A stretch of 64,000 bases of DNA from Sacculina carcini (lineage: Eukaryota > Arthropoda > Thecostraca > Sacculinidae). Positions within the stretch are counted from its first letter, which is position 1. Each line of letters opens with the position of its first letter. Below are positions 20,885-62,743 of the stretch, in pieces. The position numbers and the translations under genes were made by a program. The notes beneath the pieces are model-generated. The model did no database searches, was not told where the DNA came from, and was given only the letters and a program-made list of their open reading frames with translations. Location: contig OU696573.1 of the NCBI GenBank assembly GCA_916048095.2, forward strand, positions 7,233,806-7,297,805, written 5' to 3'.

Positions 20885-23800
20885 TATGTGTGTGTGTGTG
20901 CGTGCGTGTGTGATCACATTTTGGACCTTGTAATTAGCCCTAGGACTCAAAACAGCCCGGTCATTGATGTGTGTATAGAACCAATTGACAGAGTCTCCTC
21001 CGACCATAGCTTAATTAGATTCAAACTCAATACTCCTCTTCCGGTCAAATTTCGTCAAGCCATCTCTTTCTATGACTATAATCGTATTGATGTTGAATTA
21101 TTAGTATTTGAGCTCGGTGAAAAATTCAATGTGTTAAACTACACCTCTCTACCAGTAGACGATCTATACTCATACTTTGAAAGAACCATGAACGACGTTC
21201 GTCACATGTGTGTTCCTTATACGCAAAAACTGATTAAATGCCACCAATCCGCTCCTTGGTTCAATACCCAACTAAGCCAACTCAAGAAATTAAAAAGAAG
21301 GCATGAACACCGCTGGCGCCGAACCTTTTCACCTGAGGATTGGAGTGAGTTTTGCTCTGCCAGATCCATTTATAACCGTGCTATCACAGAAGCGAAACAA
21401 GTGTATTTTCATACAATGATCATGGACTCACGACCTGATGTACTATGGAGGACACTCAACAAACTGTTGGGTAACAAGCATAGCTCAAACCAGAATGTAT
21501 GGTGTGATAAAGAATGTATGCCCGATAAATTTCGCTTGTTTTTTCAGGAGAAAATTGAAAAAATACAGTCATCTATTCAGGTCCCGATGAGACAGGCTAA
21601 TCCTCCATCAGGTCATTCCATATTATTTACCTCATTTGAACCAATCGACTACTGTTCATGTGTTAGACTGAATAATCGAAGTAGTATGCGATCCAATAGT
21701 CTAGATCCAATCAGATTTATTGCTATCAAATCTCATTTAATACTTGTTACACCTTTTATCATGTATCTTGTAAATACTAGCTTCATGCATTGTAAATTTT
21801 TAGCTTCCAAACAGTCTATAATTACTCCTATCATTAAAAAAGCTGGATTGAGTGTGCAGTCTCTGTGTAATTACCGACCTGCTTCTCAAATACCATGGGT
21901 GTCCAAGCTTCTAGAGTATGCCATATATGATCAGCTGTATATATTCTTAGAAAATAACTTTCTTCTTTTACCACAACAATCAGGGTTTCGGAAGCAACAT
22001 TCTTGTGCCACTTCATTGCTCTGTACATATGATTACTCCTTGTCTGCGCTTTTGAGTGGACAAAACGTGCTTCTCATGCAGCTGGACTTTTCGGCGGCAT
22101 TTGATACTGTGTGCCACGAAATGCTGCTGGAAGATTTATCAAACTGCGGTGTATCTGGAGGTGCACTCTCGCTCATCCGAGATTACCTAACAGATCGCAT
22201 GCAAACAGTTATACTGAATGGAGTTCAAAGTCAGTCTTTCCCTCTGAAAACTGGTGTTCCTCAAGGGTCAATCCTTGAGCCTCTTTTTTACAATGTATAT
22301 ATATTGTCAATCAGGCAGGTTCTCGAAAACTATGGAGTTGAATATCAAATATTCGCTGACGACATTCTGGTTTACTTTAAATATGTTGACGATGTTACTA
22401 GCGATCATCACCTGGGCAGCCTCCAAGCACCTGAAGTTGAACAGGGATAAAACCAAGTTTATCGCATTGACTAGAAGTCAATGGAACGGTTCTCTCAGCA
22501 AAGAGTTACATATTGTGGAAACCACCAAACATCTCGGTGTAAAGTTAGACAGCCACTTAACATTCGAGCCACATGTGTTTGAGCTGGTGCGAAATTGTAA
22601 TTATCACCTACGTCGAGTGTACTATATAAGAAAAAATTTGACTGTAAATGCTGCTAAAAAACTTGTAGATTGTCTGATATTGAATAGGATTAAGTATTGT
22701 TCTGCCCTGTTACTGAATATTAACCACCGAACTCTGCGGAAACTGCAGAGTGTGATGAACAGGTCGTGTCGTCTTGTGTTCAACCTGCCTAGACGCACTT
22801 CTCTGGTGGAATATCTCATCAAACTAGCCTGGCTACCGGTCAAGGCTGACATTGAGTACAACCTGCTTTGTATAGTTCACTCTGTCCTTGTAAATAAAAC
22901 ACCTGCCTATCTACAAGACCTGTTATCTTTCAGACAAATTTCACCAGATTATGATTTGCGCCAAAATAATCACAATTTTCTTTACGAACCTGCATTTCCC
23001 TCTAGACACTCGCACTATAACCGCTGCTTTCAGTATATGGCTCCCAGGTTGTACAATAAGTTGCCACGGTTCATTAGGGGATCTCACTCTCTCTCACTTT
23101 TCAAAAGTAGACTTAAGAAATATTTATTGGAAAAATCTTATCACCGCGAAAAACTCCTCATTAAACCTGAGTACACGGTGTAAATTTTGCATATTCACGA
23201 TTGTGAATACAGTTGCTACATGTATAGAAAATGTTTAAAATGTTAGAAATTGTTTTATCTGAGTGTGCGTTTGTTTGGGGTTTCGTATCTATGTATATCT
23301 ATGCTGGATCTTGATTTGTACGTGTGTGTGAGTGTATGCGTGTGTGTGTGTACGACTGTCCACGCTGTGTCGGTTTCCATTGAATTGTGCATATGTAAGT
23401 ACTCTTATACCCAACCTGTGCATGTGAGCGTGTATGTGTATGTGTGCATATGTGTGTTTGTATGTGTGTGTGTGTGTATGTGTGAGGGTCCACGCTGTCC
23501 CACCGCGCGGGTTCTTTGATTGTCAGCGTGACCCTAATACTGTTTCGACTTGACGTCTTTACGTCTACCTGTCATCATTGTATATATATGAGGTGTGCGG
23601 TGTGTTTGTGATGTATGATGTTTTCGTGCGCTTAGTACAGGTAGTACCTGGCTGAATTCTCTAATTCTAATTCTATAAGATTAGTGTCATCGCTATCTTG
23701 ATGAACCGGCTAAGGTATTTGCTGATGGGCGCGTGTACGTGTGTGTGCGTGTGTCTGTGTTCTGCCTGCATTGTATTGTCCTGCTTTGTAAATATGAAAC

Positions 23801-24302: not shown

Positions 24303-25262
24303 CAATTTGTTTTCTTTTCTTTTTACAACCACAGGATGCTAATGACATAGCGCAACTTTTGGGACTTCTTCATTCATTCATATAACACCACAACACAGCC
24401 ACACGACCTAATCCACAGCACACCCACACCACAACACAGCCACGTGATTAATTGGCTATTCTGTGCAAAACATAACATGAATAAACTGCACAATATGACA
24501 TGAAAACGCACTTATCAACCACACACACGCACCCACACACACACACACACACAAACACACCACAATAACACTCACACGTCTCAAAAGAAAGATAGATAAA
24601 TATCAGACCCGTTAAGCATGGTTTAAAAATCAAGGATCACGTGGCTGTGTTGTGGTGTGGGTGTGCTGTGGATTAGGTCGCGTGGCTGTGTTGTGGTGTT
24701 ATATGTATTGATTCACTACACTGTAGTTGAAACGTCGTCTCCCAGACTGCGTATTGATTTTGGCAGGGATCAGTTGGATCGTAGTTTGCTGTTTCCTCCG
24801 TTCATTTGTGTCGAGAGTCGTGTAAATCTGTTCGGGTATTTTCGTTGTCAGGAGTTTGTGTATAAATTCAACTCGGTGTTGCTCGATGAGTGTTTCAGCT
24901 GTTGGCCATTGCAGTGCTTCGTAGATCGGGCTGATGTGGTCGCGTCTTCTCGTTCCAGTTACGACTCGTGCTGCAAAATTCAATATTTTCCTAATTTTTT
25001 GCGTCTGTGTTTTATTGCAAGTTCCGTAGATTGAATTGCAGTATCGTATGTAGCCAAATACGAGTCCAAGAACCAATTATTCATGTGTCGATGGTGGAAA
25101 GCTAGTCTTGGCTATGTTGAGTGCAATCAGCGTTCCTGTTGCATTGCGGCGGAGTCGAGATACGTGTGAGTCGTATGTAAGCTTTTGATCCAGCACAACA
25201 CCCAGTAATTTGATAGTGTCCCTCGGCTTGATAATTTGTCCGTTGAAGTCTAAATCAGATGA
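24303..25262 (-). mobile_element. LINE E: 5'-truncated LINE, 3' portion
   Basis: A minus-strand fragment with the RT C-terminus. From 25262 the frame reads LDFNGQIIKPRDTIKLLGVV, LDQKLTYDSHVSRL; a stop at about 25080; then LNFAARVVTGTRRRDHISPI, WPTAETLIEQHRVEFIHKLL up to 24699. The 3' UTR runs to GCGCTATGTCATTAGCATCC and an AAAAG-rich tail near 24315-24350. A 66-bp inverted repeat lies in the 3' UTR. The RTE/CR1-group wording differs from LINEs B, C and F. Confidence 0.8.
24381..24703. repeat. Long inverted repeat (hairpin) in LINE E 3' UTR
   Basis: About 66 bp at 24381-24446 (CACCACAACACAGCCAC, twice per arm) is repeated almost perfectly in reverse complement at 24636-24703. The loop of about 190 bp contains a (CA)n run. 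In RNA it would form a stable stem. Confidence 0.9.
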
Positions 25263-25365
25263 ATCAGTCGTCGTCGAGTAGCCGTCGCGAGTGGTGCTGT
25301 TTCTGTGAGCTCCGTGTCTTCCTTATTTGCTCTGTCTTTTTCTGTGCGCGAGTGTTGTGACCGCA

Positions 25366-26499
25366 ATGCCCAACCGTTCTGACATTGATCGATTGTGTTG
25401 TTGCGGTGAGTCCGTTTCCGCCGTCGCGCACATTGTGTGCGAAGGATGCTCCGCCGTATTTCACCCCTCATGCGCGGCGCTTTCTACACCGGCATACAAT
25501 GCTGTCAAGAAGCATAAACTGTTTTGGGTTTGTGCTTCGTGCAAAACTGACTTCGTACTAGTCAAGCGTAATCCACTGACTGTCGAGAAAGTGACATCGG
25601 TGATGGAGTCCCGCTTCACCCAGCTGCGAACCGAACTGCTTGATGATCTGCGTGACTTTCACCCCTCTCGCTGCGCCTCTGCCAACGCTGATGAAAATAC
25701 CGCTTCCCACCACAACGTGCCAGCCCGTACAATTGCTCTTGTGGTGAAAAACAAAAGTAAAGAGCCTGTACGAGCTGATAACTTGCAACAACATCTGCAA
25801 ACGGTACAAGTGAAAACGGCCCGTCCTACATCATCTGGTGGTTTTGTTTTGCGCTGCTCCACCGAAGACGCCGCTGCCCAGGCAGCCAAGTCGCTTGCCG
25901 ACAACATCGACGGAGTGCAAGTAGCAGTGCTGAATAAGCAGCAAACAATTCTGCCGAAAATCACCCTCGTGGATGTGCCACCCTCGTCCCCTGATAGTCT
26001 GCTGGCCTCCCTGCGTGCCAAGAACAGCTTTCTCACTGATGTCCCAGAAGCCGACCTCAAGTTATTCTTCATCACCCCGCCTAAACAAGGTCGCTCTCAT
26101 GCCGTGCTGGGAGTCTCACCGGGAGTTCGGCAAAAAATTCGTGAGGGAGGTGATCGCCTCTTCGTCCACCTACGCTGTTGTCGCGTTTATGACAGGTTTT
26201 GGGTGACTCGCTGCTCTTGCTGCTGTGGACTTGGTCACAAGTTTGAGCGTTGCCCCACAAAAGTACCCGTCTGTGGCTATTGTGCTGGTCCCCACCCCTC
26301 CTCCGCCTGTCCTGATCGCAGCACACTGAAATGTGTCAACTGTACTAATCACGGCCACGCTTCTAACCATTCTGTTTTTTCTCCGCAGTGTTCTTCCTTC
26401 TTGGCTGTCCGCAATTCTATCCGTGCCCGCACTCTCTTAGCTCCCACCACCTCACCACCGACCGTCATCCCTCGTCATCCCTCGCCAATGCTAAATTGA
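25366..26499 (+). CDS. LINE C ORF1: PHD-finger and zinc-knuckle protein
   Basis: 377 codons from ATG 25366 (the frame is open from 25327 but only with TTG). Residues 11-59 form a C4HC3 PHD-type finger (C11, C13, C25, C28, H33, C36, C56, C59). A short coiled region follows (VTSVMESRFTQLRTELLDDL), then a mixed alpha/beta region, then three Cys/His clusters near the C-terminus (CSCCCGLGHKFERC, CGYCAGPHPSSAC, CVNCTNHGHAS). It is probably the nucleic-acid-binding partner of the LINE RNP; PHD fingers are known in CR1 ORF1 proteins. The stop is TGA followed by CTA, and the frame continues directly into ORF2. Confidence 0.9.
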   Translation: MPNRSDIDRLCCCGESVSAVAHIVCEGCSAVFHPSCAALSTPAYNAVKKHKLFWVCASCKTDFVLVKRNPLTVEKVTSVMESRFTQLRTELLDDLRDFHPSRCASANADENTASHHNVPARTIALVVKNKSKEPVRADNLQQHLQTVQVKTARPTSSGGFVLRCSTEDAAAQAAKSLADNIDGVQVAVLNKQQTILPKITLVDVPPSSPDSLLASLRAKNSFLTDVPEADLKLFFITPPKQGRSHAVLGVSPGVRQKIREGGDRLFVHLRCCRVYDRFWVTRCSCCCGLGHKFERCPTKVPVCGYCAGPHPSSACPDRSTLKCVNCTNHGHASNHSVFSPQCSSFLAVRNSIRARTLLAPTTSPPTVIPRHPSPMLN

Positions 26500-26502
26500 C
26501 TA
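26497..26502 (+). promoter_or_regulatory. TGA-CTA stop context between in-frame ORF1 and ORF2
   Basis: The ORF1 stop TGA (26497-26499) is followed by CTA and the same frame stays open through ORF2. UGA CUA is a well-known leaky stop context in viral and cellular readthrough. ORF2 has no ATG before its first catalytic block. The same junction is present in LINE F. Confidence 0.7.
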
Positions 26503-29448
26503 TCGCCTTCTAGCGATTCTTCCCTTCCTCTTTCTATTTCAGCGCAATTTCCCTGCCGCTCTTCCATCTCTTCCCTCTACTGTTCCTCACTTCCCTCACC
26601 TCAACCTAGTCCACATTTTAACTCTAAGTATCTTTCAATTGGATTTCTCAACATCAGATCGGCTCGAAATAAAACGACTCACATATCCCACCTCTTTGCC
26701 TCACATAATATGTCTATTCTCTGTCTTGCCGAAACCTGGCTCCTTGATTCTGATATTTCCTCATTCTCTGCTAACTTACCTTCCTGTTCTTCATTCCTAC
26801 ACAAATCGCGCGACAGTTCTAAGTCTTCGGGTGGCGGGGTAGGTTGTCTATTCTCCAAAGGTCTCTCCATTTCGTCCCTTTCCAATCTGGTTTCTTCTCC
26901 CACCTCATTCGAATTCCTAGCTCTCACCCTCTCGGTCCCCTCTTTTAACAAGTTTTGCATCCTTATCATTTACCGTCCCAATCACCCCGGCACTTCCGCG
27001 ATGTTTTTTCAAGAGTTTCCTCCTCTCATTGAAGCAGTCTCGTCTATTTTCTCCAGCCATTTTATCATACTCGGCGACTTTAACTTCTGGCTTGATTCAC
27101 CCTCGGCCAATCCTTACTGCTTGAATTTTATCTCATTACTTACTTCCCATGGTCTCTCTTATTCTTCTCTCTCTCCTACACACATATCTGGCCATACACT
27201 TGATCTAATCCTGTTTCCCTCCCCATTTCTCTCGACTGATCCTGTCCCTTCCGATATCTTTGTATTTCCTCCTGATTCCTCCGTCTCTGACCACAGCCTA
27301 CTTTTATCTACTCTGCCGCTCACTTGTCCCCCTTCTCATACTCCGTCCAGCTATCGTAACTACAAATGTTTTAATTCCATTCAATTTCACTCACTATTAT
27401 CCTCCTGTCTCCCTATCTCTGCTCTGTATTATCTTCCTCCCCATGACATCTATCCATATTTCTCTTCCGCACTCTCCCATATAAATAATTGTATGTTCCC
27501 AATCATCACTCGCTCATCTTCCTCTCGCTCTCCTCCTTGGTCATCTCCTCAGCTTCGAGTACTCAAGTCTCTTCAACGACGTCTTGAGCGTACTTGGAGG
27601 CGTTCACGATCTTCTTCCGATTGGCTTTTGTTTTGCTCCGCTCGCTCATCTTTCACTTCTGCTCTTTCTGCTGCTAAAAGTAGCTACTATAGCTCCAAAC
27701 TCTCGTCCCTTTCTCGTTCCTCCAAGTCATTGTGGTCCACTCTGAACTCTCTCTGCGGTCTTAACTCTCCTGCTTTTTCCTCTCCTTTAACGGCTCCCGA
27801 GTTCTCAACATTTTTCTCTGAAAAAGTAAAACTCACACAATCGAGTATTCCCACCAATTGTGCTGCCCTCACTCACACTTCCACTCATCACCGGTTCACG
27901 TCCTTCTCTCACATTGATCTTCATGATATCCTTTCCCTCGTTTCCTCTTCCAAGCTATCCTTCTCACCAGCTGATCCAATCAACTTCCCTGCTATATCCA
28001 AATCCCTTCCTTCCCTGGTTCCTTATCTCCTGCATCTTATCAACTCCTCTTTTCTTCACGGCCAGTTTCTCGCTGACAAACATGCAATTGTCCGTCCAAT
28101 TCTTAAGAAACAGAACCTTGACTCTTCTATACTTAGTAACTATCGTCCTATATCTCTTCTGAGCTTTGCTTCTAAACTTCTCGAGTCCGCTATCTCTGCG
28201 CAACTTTCCCCTTTCATCTGCCAGTCTCTTGATCCCTTCCAATCCGGGTTTCGCCCTTCTCATTCTACCGAATCAGTTCTTCTTTCTATCTCCAATGGCA
28301 TCCTCTCGCACTTCTCGTACCGTCGCTCTGTTCTTCTCGTTCTTCTCGATATGTCCTCCGCCTTCGACCTTGTTAATCACTCTATCCTAATTCATGACTT
28401 CTCTCATCTTGGTATCTCGTCTTCTGCCCTCTCTCTCCTTAAATCGTACCTTTCGGGAAGGACCTACTCTGTCAACTTCAATTCCTCTGTATCTGATCCT
28501 ATCCATCTTTCATCAGGTGTCCCTCAGGGATCTATTCTTGGTCCGATACTCTTTAACCTTTACATGTCCTCCCTCTGTCCTATCCTTCGTAAGTATTCCA
28601 TCTCATTTCATATCTACGCTGATGACATTCAGTTATATATCCCTCTTCCTTTTCCTTCTCCGTCTTTTCTCTCTGACATCCTATCCACCATCTCTTCTTG
28701 GGCGTCGTCCCGTCACCTTCTCCTCAACCCGTCCAAGTCTGAGTTTCTGGCTCTTCATCCTCCTCGTATTCTTCCTCCTCGCTTACCTCTACCTCGCTTA
28801 CCTCTATCATCGACAGTTCGCAATCTCGGAGTTATTTTTGACTCATCTCTCTCTTCCTCCGACAACATCCTCTCTGTCGCCCGCACTTGTCGTCTTATCT
28901 TGAGATCCCTCTATCCTATACGCTCATATCTCGACAGACCTTCCGCAATCAAACTTATTCACTCTCATGTATTCTCTAGACTTGACTATTGTAATTCTTT
29001 GTACATCCATGCTCCTCGTCGTTCTCTTAAAATCCTACAACGCGTCATTAATCAATCTTGTCGTTTTGTCCTTCATCCTGTTCCTTGTCGTCACACTTCT
29101 CGATTTCTTTTTCAATTTCGCTGGCTCCCTATTATTCCACGTATTCACTTTCGCCTGTGCTGTCTGATATATAAGCTTCTCCACGATCCTCATCAGCCAT
29201 CCTATCTCCGCCTTCTCCTCACTCCTTCCCGAATTCCTCTTCCCCTTGTATGCCCTCGTGCTTTAAATGAATCTCCTTGGTCCTCCAAATCATTCTTTTT
29301 TTCCGCCCCTCGCCTTTACAATTCCATCCCAGTTCACATTACTTCTTCTCTTTCCTACAATTCTTTCCGCTCTAAGCTCTCCAAACACTTTTTTGACCTC
29401 TCTTTTGACCCAGTCTCCCACACTCTCACACCTTTTGCATCACTATAA
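26500..29448 (+). CDS. LINE C ORF2: AP endonuclease and reverse transcriptase
   Basis: Open from the codon after the ORF1 TGA to 29448 (about 982 codons). The first in-frame ATG is 26710, which lies after the catalytic-Asn block SIGFLNIRSARNKT, so an ATG start would give a damaged endonuclease. Endonuclease blocks: ILCLAETWL, IIYRPNHPG, IILGDFNFW, SPTHISGHTLDLIL, SVSDHSLL. RT blocks: [74 protein letters not shown] and LNPSKSEFL. The C-terminus lacks a zinc finger. All catalytic residues I can check are present. It nicks target DNA and primes reverse transcription. Confidence 0.92.
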   Translation, partial: LSPSSDSSLPLSISAQFPCRSSISSLYCSSLPSPQPSPHFNSKYLSIGFLNIRSARNKTTHISHLFASHNMSILCLAETWLLDSDISSFSANLPSCSSFLHKSRDSSKSSGGGVGCLFSKGLSISSLSNLVSSPTSFEFLALTLSVPSFNKFCILIIYRPNHPGTSAMFFQEFPPLIEAVSSIFSSHFIILGDFNFWLDSPSANPYCLNFISLLTSHGLSYSSLSPTHISGHTLDLILFPSPFLSTDPVPSDIFVFPPDSSVSDHSLLLSTLPLTCPPSHTPSSYRNYKCFNSIQFHSLLSSCLPISALYYLPPHDIYPYFSSALSHINNCMFPIITRSSSSRSPPWSSPQLRVLKSLQRRLERTWRRSRSSSDWLLFCSARSSFTSALSAAKSSYYSSKLSSLSRSSKSLWSTLNSLCGLNSPAFSSPLTAPEFSTFFSEKVKLTQSSIPTNCAALTHTSTHHRFTSFSHIDLHDILSLVSSSKLSFSPADPINFPAISKSLPSLVPYLLHLINSSFLHGQFLADKHAIVRPILKKQNLDSSILSNYRPISLLSFASKLLESAISAQLSPFICQSLDPFQSGFRPSHSTESVLLSISNGILSHFSYRRSVLLVLLDMSSAFDLVNHSILIHDFSHLGISSSALSLLKSYLSGRTYSVNFNSSVSDPIHLSSGVPQGSILGPILFNLYMSSLCPILRKYSISFHIYADDIQLYIPLPFPSPSFLSDILSTISSWASSRHLLLNPSKSEFLALHPPRILPPRLPLPRLPLSSTVRNLGVIFDSSLSSSDNILSVARTCRLILRSLYPIRSYLDRPSAIKLIHSHVFSRLDYCNSLYIHAPRRSLKILQRVINQSCRFVLHPVPCRHTSRFLFQFRWLPIIPRIHFRLCCLIYKLLHDPHQPSYLRLLLTPSRIPLPLVCPRALNESPWSSKSFFFSAPRLYNSIPVHITSSLSYNSFRSKLSKHFFDLSFDPVSHTLTPFASL

Positions 29449-29779
29449 CATGTTACTCTAGCATGTTCTTACTCGTATTCCTTCTCTCATTTGCATGCTT
29501 ACTATATCTACGCTATGACTATATTCTCCCGAGTTGTGTTTGCTGTGTTGTTTTGTCATTATGTTTCAGTCGTGTTGTCTTGTCCGTCATGTCCGTCTGC
29601 TTTGTATGTTTTGCCCATATTTTGTCTCTATATTTATTGTCATTTATTGCATATTTGTAGTTCACTTCTTTTGCATCTGTCCTGTTATTTGTATTCCGTG
29701 TTCCCAACTGTTATAATCGTGTCGCGCCCGAGCCCTTCGGTGCGCTATAACAAATACATGTTGTTGTTGTTGTTGTTGT

Positions 29780-30564
29780 ATCGATGCCTGGCAATGCTCT
29801 AGCTGATCCAAGTAGCATCATCTGGATCCATCATCATCATCATCATATTCTCATCAGTGGTTATCATCACCTGCCTGCAGAAAAACACTATTGGTCCACA
29901 AGTCAGGATTTCGACGCACCAATCTGTCCAAAGACAATGACCAGAGACCTGTTTCGAAAACTAAAGATGTTCCTGCATGTAGCTGACAACCAAAACTTGG
30001 CACCTTCGAAAGTCGCGAAAAGTTTGCCACTGCTCAACATGCTAAAAGAGAATTGCAGGCAATTCGGATTTTCCACACCGATTTGAGCATTGACGAATCG
30101 ATGGTTCCGTACAGGGGATAGCACAGGGTCAAGCAATTCATACGAGGAAAACCCATAAGATTTGGCTACAAGTTATGGATGATGTGCAGTTCCTAACTGT
30201 TACCCCTACAATTTTGAGGTTTATTGTGGGAAGGACCAACATAGGGACCAACCTATGGGTTCGTACGTAGTAAATGCCAGTGCAATTAAAAAAACAGACT
30301 GTCATGTCGTGTACATGGACAACTCACTCACAAGTTGTAAGCTGCTTAGCGATTTGATAGAGAGAGGATTCCGTGTCACTGGACCTATTTGAGAACAGAA
30401 CGGGGGGATGTCCTCTGGCATCTAAAATGACATGCGAAATACAAAGATAATGATACGCGAAAGAGACCACTATGATTGCCGGTCGAACGGAAAAATTATT
30501 TGCCTCAAATGGAATGACAGCAAGATGGTCATGGAGAGGGGAGAAAAAGAATTGCTCAACCCAA
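29780..30564 (+). pseudogene. piggyBac transposase, catalytic-domain part
   Basis: Directly after the LINE C tail the plus strand reads ILISGYHHLPAEKHYWSTSQ, PICPKTMTRDLFRKLKMFLH, VADNQNL, KVAKSLPLLNMLKEN, then after a frameshift near 30080 DESMVPYRG, QFIRGKPIRFGYKLWM and later YMDNSLTSCKLLSDLIERGF. These are the YW, lhf-DN, DESM and D-N-FF-type blocks of piggyBac DDD transposases. Several stops and frameshifts are present. A CAT microsatellite sits at 29830. It continues the N-terminal part at 20.4-20.87 kb. Confidence 0.82.
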
Positions 30565-32890: not shown

Positions 32891-34273
32891 CCTCACATTC
32901 AAACACCACATCAACAACATAAAAACCAAAGTCACCTCACGCCTCAACACACTTAAAGCACTCTCACACAACTTTCGGACACAACAAAGACACCACCACC
33001 ATTATATACAAACAATACATCAGACCCGCGATAGAATATGCTAGCCCCGCATGGGTTAGGAATCTCGCAACACGCCACATGAGCACACTTCAAACACTTC
33101 AAAACACCGCACTCAGAACCATCACAGGATGCACAGCCACCACACCTGCAGACCACCTCCATCACGAAATAAACATCCTCAAACATTTAACACCACTTAG
33201 GCATGAGAGGCACACAAACACTCGCAGCAGCAGTCACCAACACAGCACATCCACTACATCAACTCACAACTCAAGAATACACAACCAGAAACATAAAACA
33301 ACACCAGGCACACTTTACTACAGACAAATTCTCAAATCAATTTCACCAGCTCCCCCAATTACATCAATCAAGAAACACATACACACAGAGATCGCACGGA
33401 AACCTATACATTCACTTAACATAACACAAATATTAACATAACACACTCCTACAAAGGCACCCACCAGACATACACAAATCAGATAACACACTCACAAGCG
33501 AAAACAAGGTGCATGTGGCCAGGTTGAGATGTGGTCATCATCCTGCTCTTCTGACTTATAAGAGAACGCTGAATGACTCGATCGATGACACCTGTCCATA
33601 TTGTGATTCGGCACCACACACCATCACACACATCATGGAACACTGTACAGCACACACACAACTCAGACGCCAACACAAAATCAAGTCAATCAGGGACCTG
33701 TGGAACAACCCGGTCGGAGCCGTGTCTTTCCTCACGAGCACGAGGTTGTTCGGCCAGACAGCCTGAGGAACAACAACAACTACGATTACGCGCCGACAGC
33801 CAACATTTTCACAAGCACAGAGCACCCACAAACACCCACATACACGCATGCGTACGTCCTCGTCCAGTAGACCACATGAAACACGAAGGCACACGTACAC
33901 GCACTCACGCACACACACCATAGCTATTTTTGTTTGATTCTTTGTTTGTGTCATGTATATAGTCGCACTTATCCGGGAAGCATGAGACTGCGTATATTTT
34001 GCGTGCATGTATTCAGTTTCCCTCGTTTTCGATGTCTTTACGCTGCGCTCTTCTACGTTCTTGTATGTGCCCTGCTGCTGTTCTGATCCTCTGTATCTCC
34101 TTGATTTAATATGCGTTTTAGTTTCCATTTCTGTGAGCGCGTTGAGCTCTTATTATCGTATTATCCTGTACTCGCATTGTCAGTGTATATTTAATGTTTA
34201 TTCTGCATCGGTATTCGTCTGCGCGCCTGTGATGATGAGCGCTATACCAAATACACTGTTGTTGTTGTTGGTT
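32891..34273 (+). mobile_element. LINE D: 5'-truncated LINE with C-terminal zinc finger
   Basis: Starts mid-RT at LTFKHHINNIKTKVTSRL and continues YKQYIRPAIEYASPAWVRN, TLQTLQNTALRTITGC, then after at least two frame breaks GHHPALLTYKRTLND and a CCHC finger CPYCDSAPHTITHIMEHC near the end (33590-33645), ending RLFGQTA. A finger of this kind marks Jockey/R1/I-group LINEs and is absent from LINEs A, B, C and F. The 3' UTR ends AGCGCTATACCAAATACACT and (GTT)4 at 34273. It is joined directly to the Ty3/gypsy fossil. Confidence 0.85.
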
Positions 34274-59803: not shown

Positions 59804-61783
59804 TTAGTAGGACATATAGAGGTTAAAAAGTAAAGGACCTAAGATGGAGCCCTGAGGAACTCCAGACAATAGAGAAGCAGAACTAGAAGTTGAGGAATTG
59901 AAATTTATGGCAAAGGTCCGGTTGGATAAGTAAGAGCAGAGAAGTGATAGGGCAGATGAAGATAAGCCAATGTGGAAAAGATCATGAGTAAGAATAGTGT
60001 GGTCAACTAGGTCAAATGCAGAAGACAAATCAAGGAGTACAAGAAGAACAGACTGTTTAAAAGAGAAATGCGATAAGATGTTTTGAGAGAGGGATATGAG
60101 GACAGTTTCAGTTGAGTGAAAAGGACGGAAACCAGATTGGAAAGGATCAAGTGCACGACAAATAAAAGGAGATAGTTGAGAAAAGATGGCAGATTCCAGA
60201 AGCTTGGAAGAGAAACTCAAGAGTGATATAGGGCGGTAGCTTTTACAATCAGAGGGATCAAGAGAGGTTTTTTTTAGGACAGGATAGATAATGGCATGCT
60301 TGTCAGAGAGAAATTTACCGTGGAGAAATGAAGAATTAATTAGATGAAGAAAATACGGGACCAGTGACATAATAGAAGAGGAAATGGCAAGGAAATTTAT
60401 TGGATCGGCCGGTGAGAAAGAGATTTTTAACTTGGAGATTAGAAAAAGAACACCAGGGAGGTCAATCTGAGAGAAAGAGGGGAAATCATCAACAGAGGAA
60501 GTATGAGTCAGAAGAATATTGGAGTGGTTAATTTTAGCTTGTGCAGATATAACCTTATCAGTAAAGTAGGATGATAGATCGGAGGCTGAAAGTGAAGAAA
60601 CAGGATGAGAACGGTTGCCAGTGAGTTTGTTGAGAGTCACCCAGAGGGCCTTCGGAGAACGGGAAAGGGAGGAAAGACGAGAAGTGTAAAAAGATCGCTT
60701 AGCTGAAGAAAGAGCAGCAATGTACAGAGAGCGAGAAGTGGAAAACGCCAACAAATCAATGGACAGGAGAGAGCGTTTCCAGGATCGTTCTAAGGAGCGT
60801 AGATTTTTTTTTACCTCGAGAAGATGAGAGTTTATCCACGGAGGAGCTGACCTGTGTTTATGAGGACGAGCAACTAAAGGGAAAATATTATCATTGATGG
60901 AACATAGAACCGAAGACAGAAAAGTATGAATTTCATCAGGGCTGAGAGAGTAAAGAATGTGAAGTGGAAAGAGTGAACTGAGTAAACCATGGAAGTGAAT
61001 TGGATCGAATTTTTTACAGTCACGGTAGAAAGAATTAGATAGAGAATTAGATAGGGCAAGGGTCCGAGAGTGATCAGGAAATGAAAGTGGAAGGGAACTC
61101 AGTAAAAGGCTATGATCCGAGAGTGAGGGGTCAGGAGGGAGAACAAGTACATCAGATGGAGGACAGTCGGAGGATAGAATAGGAATAGGGAAAATAATAA
61201 GGTCAAGGGTGTGTCCAGATATATGAGTAGGTGAGGAAACCGGAGAAAGAAGGGCATGAGAGTTGATAAGAGAAATAAAATTGGTGGCAAGATGTGGTAA
61301 GTCGACCCAGTAGTTGAAGTCGCCTACAATTATAAATCTACTAGAAAAGGAAGAGACAATTAAGTCAAGGAGTGCTGAAAATTCAGAGAAAAAGGAAGAC
61401 GAGGTACCCGGATGATTATGACGATAGGCGATCAACAAGCAGAATTCACGAGAAGAGGGAAGAGAAAGAGATAGAGCAAGATATTCAAAAGAGGAATATG
61501 GAGGGAAGGAAGAAATAACAGAAATAGGAAGGGATTTATGAAAAAAGCAACCCACTCCACCACCAGATAATTTAGAGTTAGTTCTAGCCTTATGGGAGAA
61601 CGAATAATCAGGAAGGATGTTGGAGGCAAAAGAAGGAACGTCGGACTCGAGGAGCCATGTCTCGACTATGCAAAGGATGGAGAGAGAGTAGTGGGAGCAA
61701 ATATGTGAAATATGAGAAGTCTTGTTGCGACAGGAACGAATATTAATGAAGCCAATGGGGATATGAGGGAGGACCGGTGGTAG
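59804..61783 (-). pseudogene. LINE F ORF2 (endonuclease and partial RT)
   Basis: Open from the codon after the ORF1 TGA. It reads LPPVLPHIPIGFINIRSCRN, ILCIVETWLLESDV, IAYRHNHPG, IIVGDFNYW, SPTHISGHTLDLII, SLSDHSLLL, then RT blocks YRPISLLSFSSKLLE, SGFRPFHSTETVLI, LLDLSSAFDLVDHTIL and [18 protein letters not shown] before a stop at 59804. No ATG precedes the endonuclease catalytic blocks. About one third of the RT is missing. Confidence 0.9.
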
Positions 61784-61786
61784 TCA
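61781..61786 (-). promoter_or_regulatory. TGA-CTA stop context between in-frame LINE F ORFs
   Basis: The ORF1 ending NSCT is followed by TGA (61786-61784) and CTA (61783-61781), with the frame open onward into the endonuclease. Same six bases and arrangement as in LINE C although the flanking codons differ. Confidence 0.7.
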
Positions 61787-62743
61787 TGTGCAGGAATTAG
61801 GACTAGATGTATAACTAGACGTAGCAGTGCGCTGCTGAAGAGAGCCACGAACGGCTAGAAAAGATGGACAAGATGAGCAGAACGAAGAGTGAGAATGAGG
61901 ACGGCCCGTGGACGTACAGTTATGACACTTTTCAGGTGCCAATCGGTCACAGACATTTGACCGGTGAGGGCCAGCACAGTGACCGCACACGACTTCGCGC
62001 GAACAGTGGTCATCCCTGTGTCCAAGGCCAGCGCATCTGCCACAGTGGACCACCCAAAATCTGTCGTAAACCGGGCAGGAGCATAGATCGATAAACAACC
62101 GGTCACCAGCTCTCCTCAACAGAGCTCGTACATCAGGTGAAACAGCAAGAACGGCGTGAATGGCATTGTTTTTGGGCCGAGTGTAAAAAAGAAGGCGAAG
62201 TTCAGTCTCAGGAACAGAAGAGAGAATTGAGTTTTTTTGACGGAGCAGTGTGGTAAAACGATCAGCCGATATATCGTGTGGGATATTCGCCATGGTGATT
62301 TTGGGCCCAATGGGCGCCGCAGTTGGTAAGACGACGTCGACATCCGGCAGGGACGAGCGCACGCGGTCAGCCACATGCTCGGCAGCTGCAGTTGAATGAC
62401 AGCGCAGTACAAAGCTTCCATTAGCCGCAGGACGACAAGAGGACACAGGGACATCCTGCAGTGCCGGGGAAAGCCTGGAGGCCGTGATGGGCTCACTACC
62501 ACGCGACTTCAACACCACAGAATGTGCCGGGCGACGGTGGGCCGGCTCAGGTGAGGGCACGGGAGCAGGTGCTGGACATACATTGCGCGATCCAAGCGCA
62601 GCAACCGAAGCCTCAACAGATTCAAGCCTAGAACCAACAGCAACAAGATTCTCGGCAAGCTGCAGCGCGACCTTAGCGCGGCCCAGACAAGGCGAACAAA
62701 TCCAGTTAACAACCTTGATTTGGTCAGAGCGGACGCAGTAGAA
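61784..62743 (-). pseudogene. LINE F ORF1, 5'-truncated
   Basis: Starts in the last part of the PHD finger (CVRSDQIKVVNWICSPCL), then a coiled stretch LQLAENLVAVGSRLESVEAS, a Pro-rich linker, ITMANIPHDISADRFTTLL, and Cys/His clusters CGRCAGLGHRDDHC, CGHCAGPHRSNVC and CHNCTSTGRPHSHSSFC. Alignable to LINE C ORF1 along its length (YDRFWV and SSCPSFLAVR also shared). No internal stop. The first residues of the finger and the start codon are missing. Confidence 0.88.

Follow-up and report, generated by a model that had tools for sequence, protein, structure and literature searches.

The hexanucleotide UGA-CUA, a stop codon together with the codon behind it, is a short and well-studied readthrough signal. 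On its own it gives 1.5% readthrough in human cells, and in the context of the OPRL1 gene up to ~31% in HEK-293T cells (PMC4132726). As reported there, OPRL1, OPRK1, AQP4 and MAPK10 require CUAG past the UGA, with 12 downstream bases being enough for maximal readthrough; replacing CAAUUA by CUAUUA brought readthrough back in the setting of OPRL1, whereas a plant assay with UAG showed no such recovery; and several alphaviruses carry UGA-CUA as well (PMC4132726). The identical six bases stand between the two open reading frames (ORFs) of LINE C, a long interspersed nuclear element (LINE) on the forward strand of a 64,000-nucleotide stretch of the Sacculina carcini genome (assembly GCA_916048095.2, contig OU696573.1, positions 7,233,806 to 7,297,805), the whole of which is hereafter called the window and supplies all coordinates below. 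Comparison of this junction among copies and families suggests that LINE C and its relatives very probably make their replication enzyme by programmed UGA-CUA stop-codon readthrough. In the human genes G follows CUA (PMC4132726), whereas it does so in only 4 of the 14 LINE families with CTA. The extension in the human genes is short, whereas in LINE C it would comprise a whole LINE endonuclease-reverse transcriptase. In alphaviruses the readthrough extension is the viral polymerase.

Retroelements offer several partial parallels. Murine leukaemia virus gag-pol, like LINE C, places the structural protein first and the enzyme as its same-frame extension (PMC5009743), but it is a long terminal repeat (LTR) element relying on UAG and a pseudoknot, whereas LINE C is a non-LTR element with UGA-CUA and no detectable shared structure. 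In Candida Tca2 a UGA lies between two retrotransposon genes, as in LINE C, but this is again an LTR element, and the bypass is called unclear (PMC2194720). Among non-LTR elements, SART1 and L1 carry ORF1 and ORF2 on one RNA, as LINE C does, but use an ORF2 AUG (PMC5972666), whereas LINE C has no in-frame AUG ahead of its endonuclease; the same source reports StopGo (2A) recoding in trypanosome and sea urchin non-LTR elements, a device resembled by the GDVEMNPGP motif of another element of the window, LINE A, but without a counterpart in LINE C. Candida Zorro3 is also a two-ORF LINE, but requires the first ATG of its ORF2 (PMC1965478). A survey of 448 Jockey-superfamily elements assigns PHD-containing ORF1s to the CR1 and L2 lineages and includes some apparently single-ORF PHD elements; the terms "stop codon" and "readthrough" have zero occurrences in its text (PMC4120745). 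Readthrough between LINE ORFs is likewise undescribed in the titles and abstract openings of the open-access matches listed, a scope outside which Repbase and subscription journals lie. The name CR1 for LINE C is a label carried over from a preliminary description made from the sequence alone.

The ORF1-ORF2 junction of LINE C and its relatives D and E

ORF1 of LINE C (377 residues, forward strand) runs from an ATG at 25366 to 26499 and ends in TGA at 26497-26499, so that the proposed readthrough signal TGA-CTA occupies 26497-26502. The same frame then stays open for 982 codons up to a TAA at 29446-29448 (ORF2 frame, 26500-29448). Its first 50 codons (26500-26649) form a linker that keeps ORF1 and the endonuclease in a common frame; it has no in-frame stop and, in whichever frame it is read, no ATG. 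An APE-type endonuclease follows at 26647-27294 (PF03372 Exo_endo_phos, ORF2 residues 50-265, E 8.2e-10), opening with the motif SIGFLNIRS, and a reverse transcriptase at 28105-28836 (PF00078 RVT_1, ORF2 residues 536-779, E 1.5e-34). The Asn of NIRS (codon at 26650-26652) is taken here to be the catalytic residue, as in the L1 endonuclease. Within the ORF2 frame, ATG first appears at 26710 (codon 71), inside the endonuclease and 3' of NIRS. Re-reading the sequence thus bore out two points of the preliminary description, namely that the frame continues through TGA-CTA for 982 codons and that no ATG precedes the endonuclease. A single copy is nevertheless weak evidence, because a shared frame arises by chance in about one third of cases and an in-frame ATG is rare in linkers anyway.

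The DNA of 26200-27000 was searched against the source genome (264 Mb, 43 contigs), 40 copies being scored of 171 candidates. The scored copies are 97-100% identical to the query. Among 30 loci cut out, the window's own included, 29 carry TGA-CTA and one (L027) TGT-CTA; 29 of the 30 have their first methionine past the stop at codon 71, the remaining one (L032) at codon 168. The TGA-CTA junction is a trait of the LINE C family and not damage to one copy. These copies say little about selection, because they are too similar to one another.

More distant comparison is offered by LINE D, on the reverse strand of the window (59810-62539, limits given by protein matches, with ORF2 breaking off past the reverse transcriptase core). 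Its ORF1 is 44% and its ORF2 57% identical to those of LINE C, both in one frame (tblastn in the window), and its TGA-CTA lies at 61786-61781 (TGA 61786-61784). The linker is different in length, with 13 codons from the stop to the NIRS Asn and no in-frame ATG, as counted in copy L042. TGA-CTA is present in 11/11 D loci reaching the junction (L039-L048 and L056, L039 being the window's own); this set excludes the decayed L049-L055 and L058, while L057, L059, L060 and L061 stop short of the endonuclease start. Two of the older D relatives, L049 and L055, also retain TGA-CTA. In a further family, E, whose DNA is ~70% identical to that of D just past the junction, TGA-CTAG is found in 9/9 distinct places (L062-L068, L077, L078; L075 and L076 repeat L067 and L066), with a linker of 31 codons.

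The ORF1 N-terminus of LINE C is PHD-like (about 25396-25542, residues 11-59): the Pfam PHD model (PF00628) matches with E 0.00064 and 20.1 bits, against a curated cut-off of 24 bits, and Cys/His positions of this region are common to C, D and E in an ORF1 alignment. Cys/His knuckles at the ORF1 C-terminus were recognised by eye. A protein search with the single ORF1 sequence returned zero matches, and a three-sequence profile led to two unnamed proteins.

Junctions across LINE families of the genome

A wider census relied on the pattern NIRSxRNK at the endonuclease start, which has 602 matches in the genome as compared with 8 for a reversed control. Families are our own labels. They were defined by 24 matching bases where the endonuclease begins, using about 100 listed places (contigs C1-C3) out of the 602; outside these places families were sampled only as D, E, G1 and G2. 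A sampling of families based on RVT_1 was discarded, having returned other LINE kinds. Upstream sequence was read for 1-3 copies per family, and each same-frame family, C, D and E among them, entered a 17-family table with one copy, the most intact seen. Second copies without an intact junction (L080, L089, L090, L103) stand outside that table, as do families F2 and F11, because their frames do not match.

All families of the table end ORF1 in TGA and continue with C (17/17). CTA follows the stop in 14/17 families (C, D, E, F1, F3, F4, F6, F7, F9, F10, F13, F14, F15 and F16), or in 12/15 once F7 and F16 are removed, two decayed families whose TGA-CTA was hand-picked among several stops. Elsewhere in the linkers CTA accounts for 12 of 666 other codons. 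The corresponding binomial value for 12/15, 5e-19, presupposes an independence that related families lack; even so, the recurrence of CTA at the family level is, on these sequences, well beyond chance. A stronger argument than the binomial is that kinship is erased past TGA-CTA while the signal persists. Linkers range from 13 to 64 codons and their pairwise identity is 0.48 versus 0.47 after shuffling, whereas pairs retain an identity of 0.61 over the final 90 bases of ORF1. The base following CTA carries 0.08 bits, and in the upstream flanks individual C-rich positions go up to 1.17 bits. G1 and G2, known from 101-base pieces, show TGA-CTA too. Counts of stops per frame were left unused as evidence, because a linker by definition begins behind the nearest in-frame stop. 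It may also be recorded that the stop lies within ATGA at the junctions of D, F4, F10, F13, F14, F15 and F16, and that CAA precedes the stop in all of these but D.

Searches at the protein level point in the same direction. A junction-spanning protein query gave 106 listed matches, with 102 of 4,367 candidates scored; 16 of the 106 rows, which do not span the junction or fall between identity bands, were left out of the counts, three of them, at 49-51% identity, ending before residue 109. Among 37 diverged rows across the junction (53-57% identical, from few families including F9, G1 and G2), 35 have a single stop, which is TGA; one of the other two has one TAA, and the other TGA plus TAG. Once stops are read through, 19 of the 37 stay open for 1,300 codons or longer. 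In the 53 C-like rows the lone stop is TGA in 35, and TGA occurs once or more in 49. The search table does not give the position of the stop, and the junctions of F9, G1 and G2 were read directly.

Outside this genome, LINE C ORF2 matched 200 proteins of a large collection, the best 62% identical; viral contigs yielded zero relatives. Nine of the ORF2 relatives were looked at as proteins only, with starts that are the choice of gene predictors. P0001, P0004, P0005 and P0008 start past NIRS, as expected if no upstream ATG exists, and P0002 is partial.

Candidate UGA-CUA readthrough and its alternatives

In the proposed mechanism the majority of ribosomes would terminate at UGA, yielding the PHD-like ORF1 protein, while a minority, aided by the adjoining CUA, would decode UGA as an amino acid. 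The product of the latter would be an ORF1-ORF2 fusion of ~1,360 residues containing the whole endonuclease and reverse transcriptase. We infer from sequence the occurrence of readthrough, its rate, its control of the ORF1:ORF2 ratio and the role of the fusion as the active enzyme; a control of that ratio through termination efficiency, as in gag-pol, was suggested in the preliminary description. The readthrough proposed there is supported by conservation of TGA, CTA and the frame in 29/30 C, 11/11 D and 9/9 E loci and 14/17 families. Most families have UGA-CUA; junctions of the kind named there as contrary evidence exist in three families with another codon (F5 also having an in-frame ATG), in one that is frameshifted and in one F10 copy with an ATG. 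The stop is kept across families despite the existence of sense variants (TGT in L027, TCA in L051 and L052) and of a copy in which the ORF1 stop is absent (L090), which suggests that ORF1 protein alone may also be needed.

Several observations weigh against this proposal. Among the same-frame families F5 has TGA-CAA, F8 TGA-CAT and F12 TGA-CGT (3/17); the D relatives L051 and L052, at 83-84% identity, read TCA-CTA, one G1 copy TAA-CTA, and F6 includes one copy without a stop. In F2 the junction is frameshifted, ORF1 and endonuclease not sharing a frame. F11 has TGA-CTAG in 3/3 copies, but its endonuclease frame differs from that of ORF1 and varies among the three, so that these copies look decayed. 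The family representatives were picked as the most intact copies, and of 29 unchosen pieces (L079-L109, F families except F2) only 14 have TGA-CTA as their nearest in-frame stop, the remainder comprising F5, F8, F11 and F12 plus copies showing additional stops, indels or a different 5' sequence. The lack of in-frame ATG in the linkers is insignificant taken alone (1 in 572, compared with 9 and 1 in 557 for the other frames). The ratio of nonsynonymous to synonymous variation (pN/pS) in LINE C is 0.35 for ORF2 and 1.25 for ORF1 among shared variants, and 0.88 and 0.47, respectively, among singletons. Four of the nine outside relatives (P0003, P0010, P0011, P0013) have a methionine ahead of NIRS.

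Two further points of this kind concern the context of the stop. The G after CUA, critical in OPRL1, is absent from LINE C and confined to the four CTA families mentioned above; with G mostly absent, readthrough at a low, percent-level rate is to be expected. In folding, the 90 bases past the stop hold no stimulatory structure common to the families and no excess over shuffled sequence (mean z -0.13, 18 sequences), by which 3' RNA structure is ruled out as a common driver; the lowest values are those of C (-2.84, a 5-bp hairpin), F9 (-2.73) and F8 (-1.98). The lack of excess structure fits the short-context class of readthrough.

A separate start of ORF2 at a non-AUG codon, by termination-reinitiation or internal initiation as in SART1 or L1, appears improbable, even though separate ORF2 starts are documented in other LINEs (PMC5972666). 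The outside relatives with an early methionine would agree with it, as would F5, where an in-frame ATG lies 11 codons past the stop in 2/2 copies, and the placement of the stop inside ATGA, a known reinitiation layout, in 7/17 families. All seven ATGA starts, however, are out of the endonuclease frame, and six of them meet a stop before the Asn codon. No in-frame ATG precedes NIRS in the representatives of C, D, E, F1, F3, F4, F6, F8, F9, F10 and F12-F15; among the 17 representatives it occurs only in F5 and the decayed F7 and F16, and among other copies in L096, one of two F10 copies, right after CTA. For LINE C an in-frame reinitiation start is ruled out, there being no in-frame AUG before the endonuclease. 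Moreover, reinitiation requires neither a shared frame nor CTA past the stop. A 2A/StopGo device is likewise ruled out in LINE C, since the NPGP motif is found neither there nor in the fetched loci scanned, but only in LINE A.

Shared ancestry without function, in which TGA-CTA would be left over from an ancestor and splicing or another change of the RNA would provide for ORF2, is very unlikely in our estimation. The families are indeed related and not independent samples, as the pairwise identity at the end of ORF1 attests, yet TGA-C (17/17) and CTA (14/17) persist next to linkers in which similarity is no longer detectable. Removal of the stop by splicing is ruled out by the D linker, which has no AG acceptor. 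Reassignment of UGA in S. carcini, or its reading as selenocysteine, has nothing in its favour beyond the in-frame UGA itself and is scarcely credible: the 1,361 codons of LINE C include 11 TGG and one TGA, and the D and E copies examined have 9 and 12 TGG, respectively, and one TGA each, a usage that rules out a change of the genetic code, which would, in addition, make CTA unnecessary. UGA-CUA readthrough thus appears the most probable source of the enzyme in this group.

Exceptional junctions and the surroundings of LINE C

Departures from UGA-CUA may themselves be informative. F5 (L087, L088), where TGA-CAA is combined with the downstream in-frame ATG, clusters with F6, a TGA-CTA family, with support 99/97 in a small tree (11/15 rows, 146 columns; no ORF1 piece was found for the other 4 rows, and the root serves for drawing only). 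Loss of CTA and gain of AUG may thus go together in F5. In F2 the sequence A_AAA_AAC lies in ORF1 phase just 5' of the ORF1 stop in 3/3 copies (L081, L082, L110), with TGA following immediately in two copies and two codons later in L082, and the endonuclease is in the -1 frame. This heptamer with a -1 frame downstream is the layout of -1 frameshift sites, and the F2 sequence looks like a candidate -1 ribosomal frameshift site. No 3' RNA structure was found for F2 (z 0.15), which forms the longest branch of the tree and is unsurely placed. LINE A (6468-3646, reverse strand), whose ORF2 is 26% identical, carries the 2A-like GDVEMNPGP just ahead of the endonuclease, with 933 codons open past the motif and containing endonuclease and reverse transcriptase domains. 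On balance, we lean towards the view that several recoding devices serve LINE junctions in this one genome, with UGA-CUA readthrough the commonest and perhaps ancestral, and with a -1 frameshift in F2, an AUG in F5 and 2A in LINE A.

LINE C as a whole spans ~25264-29779 on the forward strand. Its 5' boundary derives from copy alignment, in which 14 copies from outside the window align from 25263-25281 on (15/30 C loci compared), and its 3' end is a (GTT)n tail at 29760-29779. No target-site duplication was recognised, no word of at least 5 bases being common to 25200-25266 and 29745-29830. A piggyBac-type transposase fragment on the forward strand (29751-30083, PF13843 DDE_Tnp_1_7, E 5.6e-09) abuts the tail, and a second short stretch, at 34239-34270, matches the 3' end of LINE C with its (GTT)n tail (94%). 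Upstream, a relative of LINE C ORF2 occupies 20912-23141 on the forward strand (33-37% identical, from residue 231 on, in two frames). A reverse-strand ORF at 24699-25076, upstream of the LINE C 5' end, resembles by eye the C-terminal end of another LINE reverse transcriptase protein; Pfam gave zero matches for it.

Taken together, these observations describe LINE families in which a conserved UGA-CUA junction couples the two genes, most likely by readthrough. How a LINE sets the ratio of two proteins made from one RNA has been solved in few cases, and the recurrence of a short, well-studied signal in many families of one genome turns it into a question that reporters can test. The UGA-CUA junction ties LINEs to the logic of retroviral gag-pol, while the exceptions among sister families offer a view on the replacement of one recoding device by another. 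If the coexistence of several devices is true, the mixed junctions of S. carcini LINEs would amount to a natural experiment in which non-LTR elements exchange their recoding signals.

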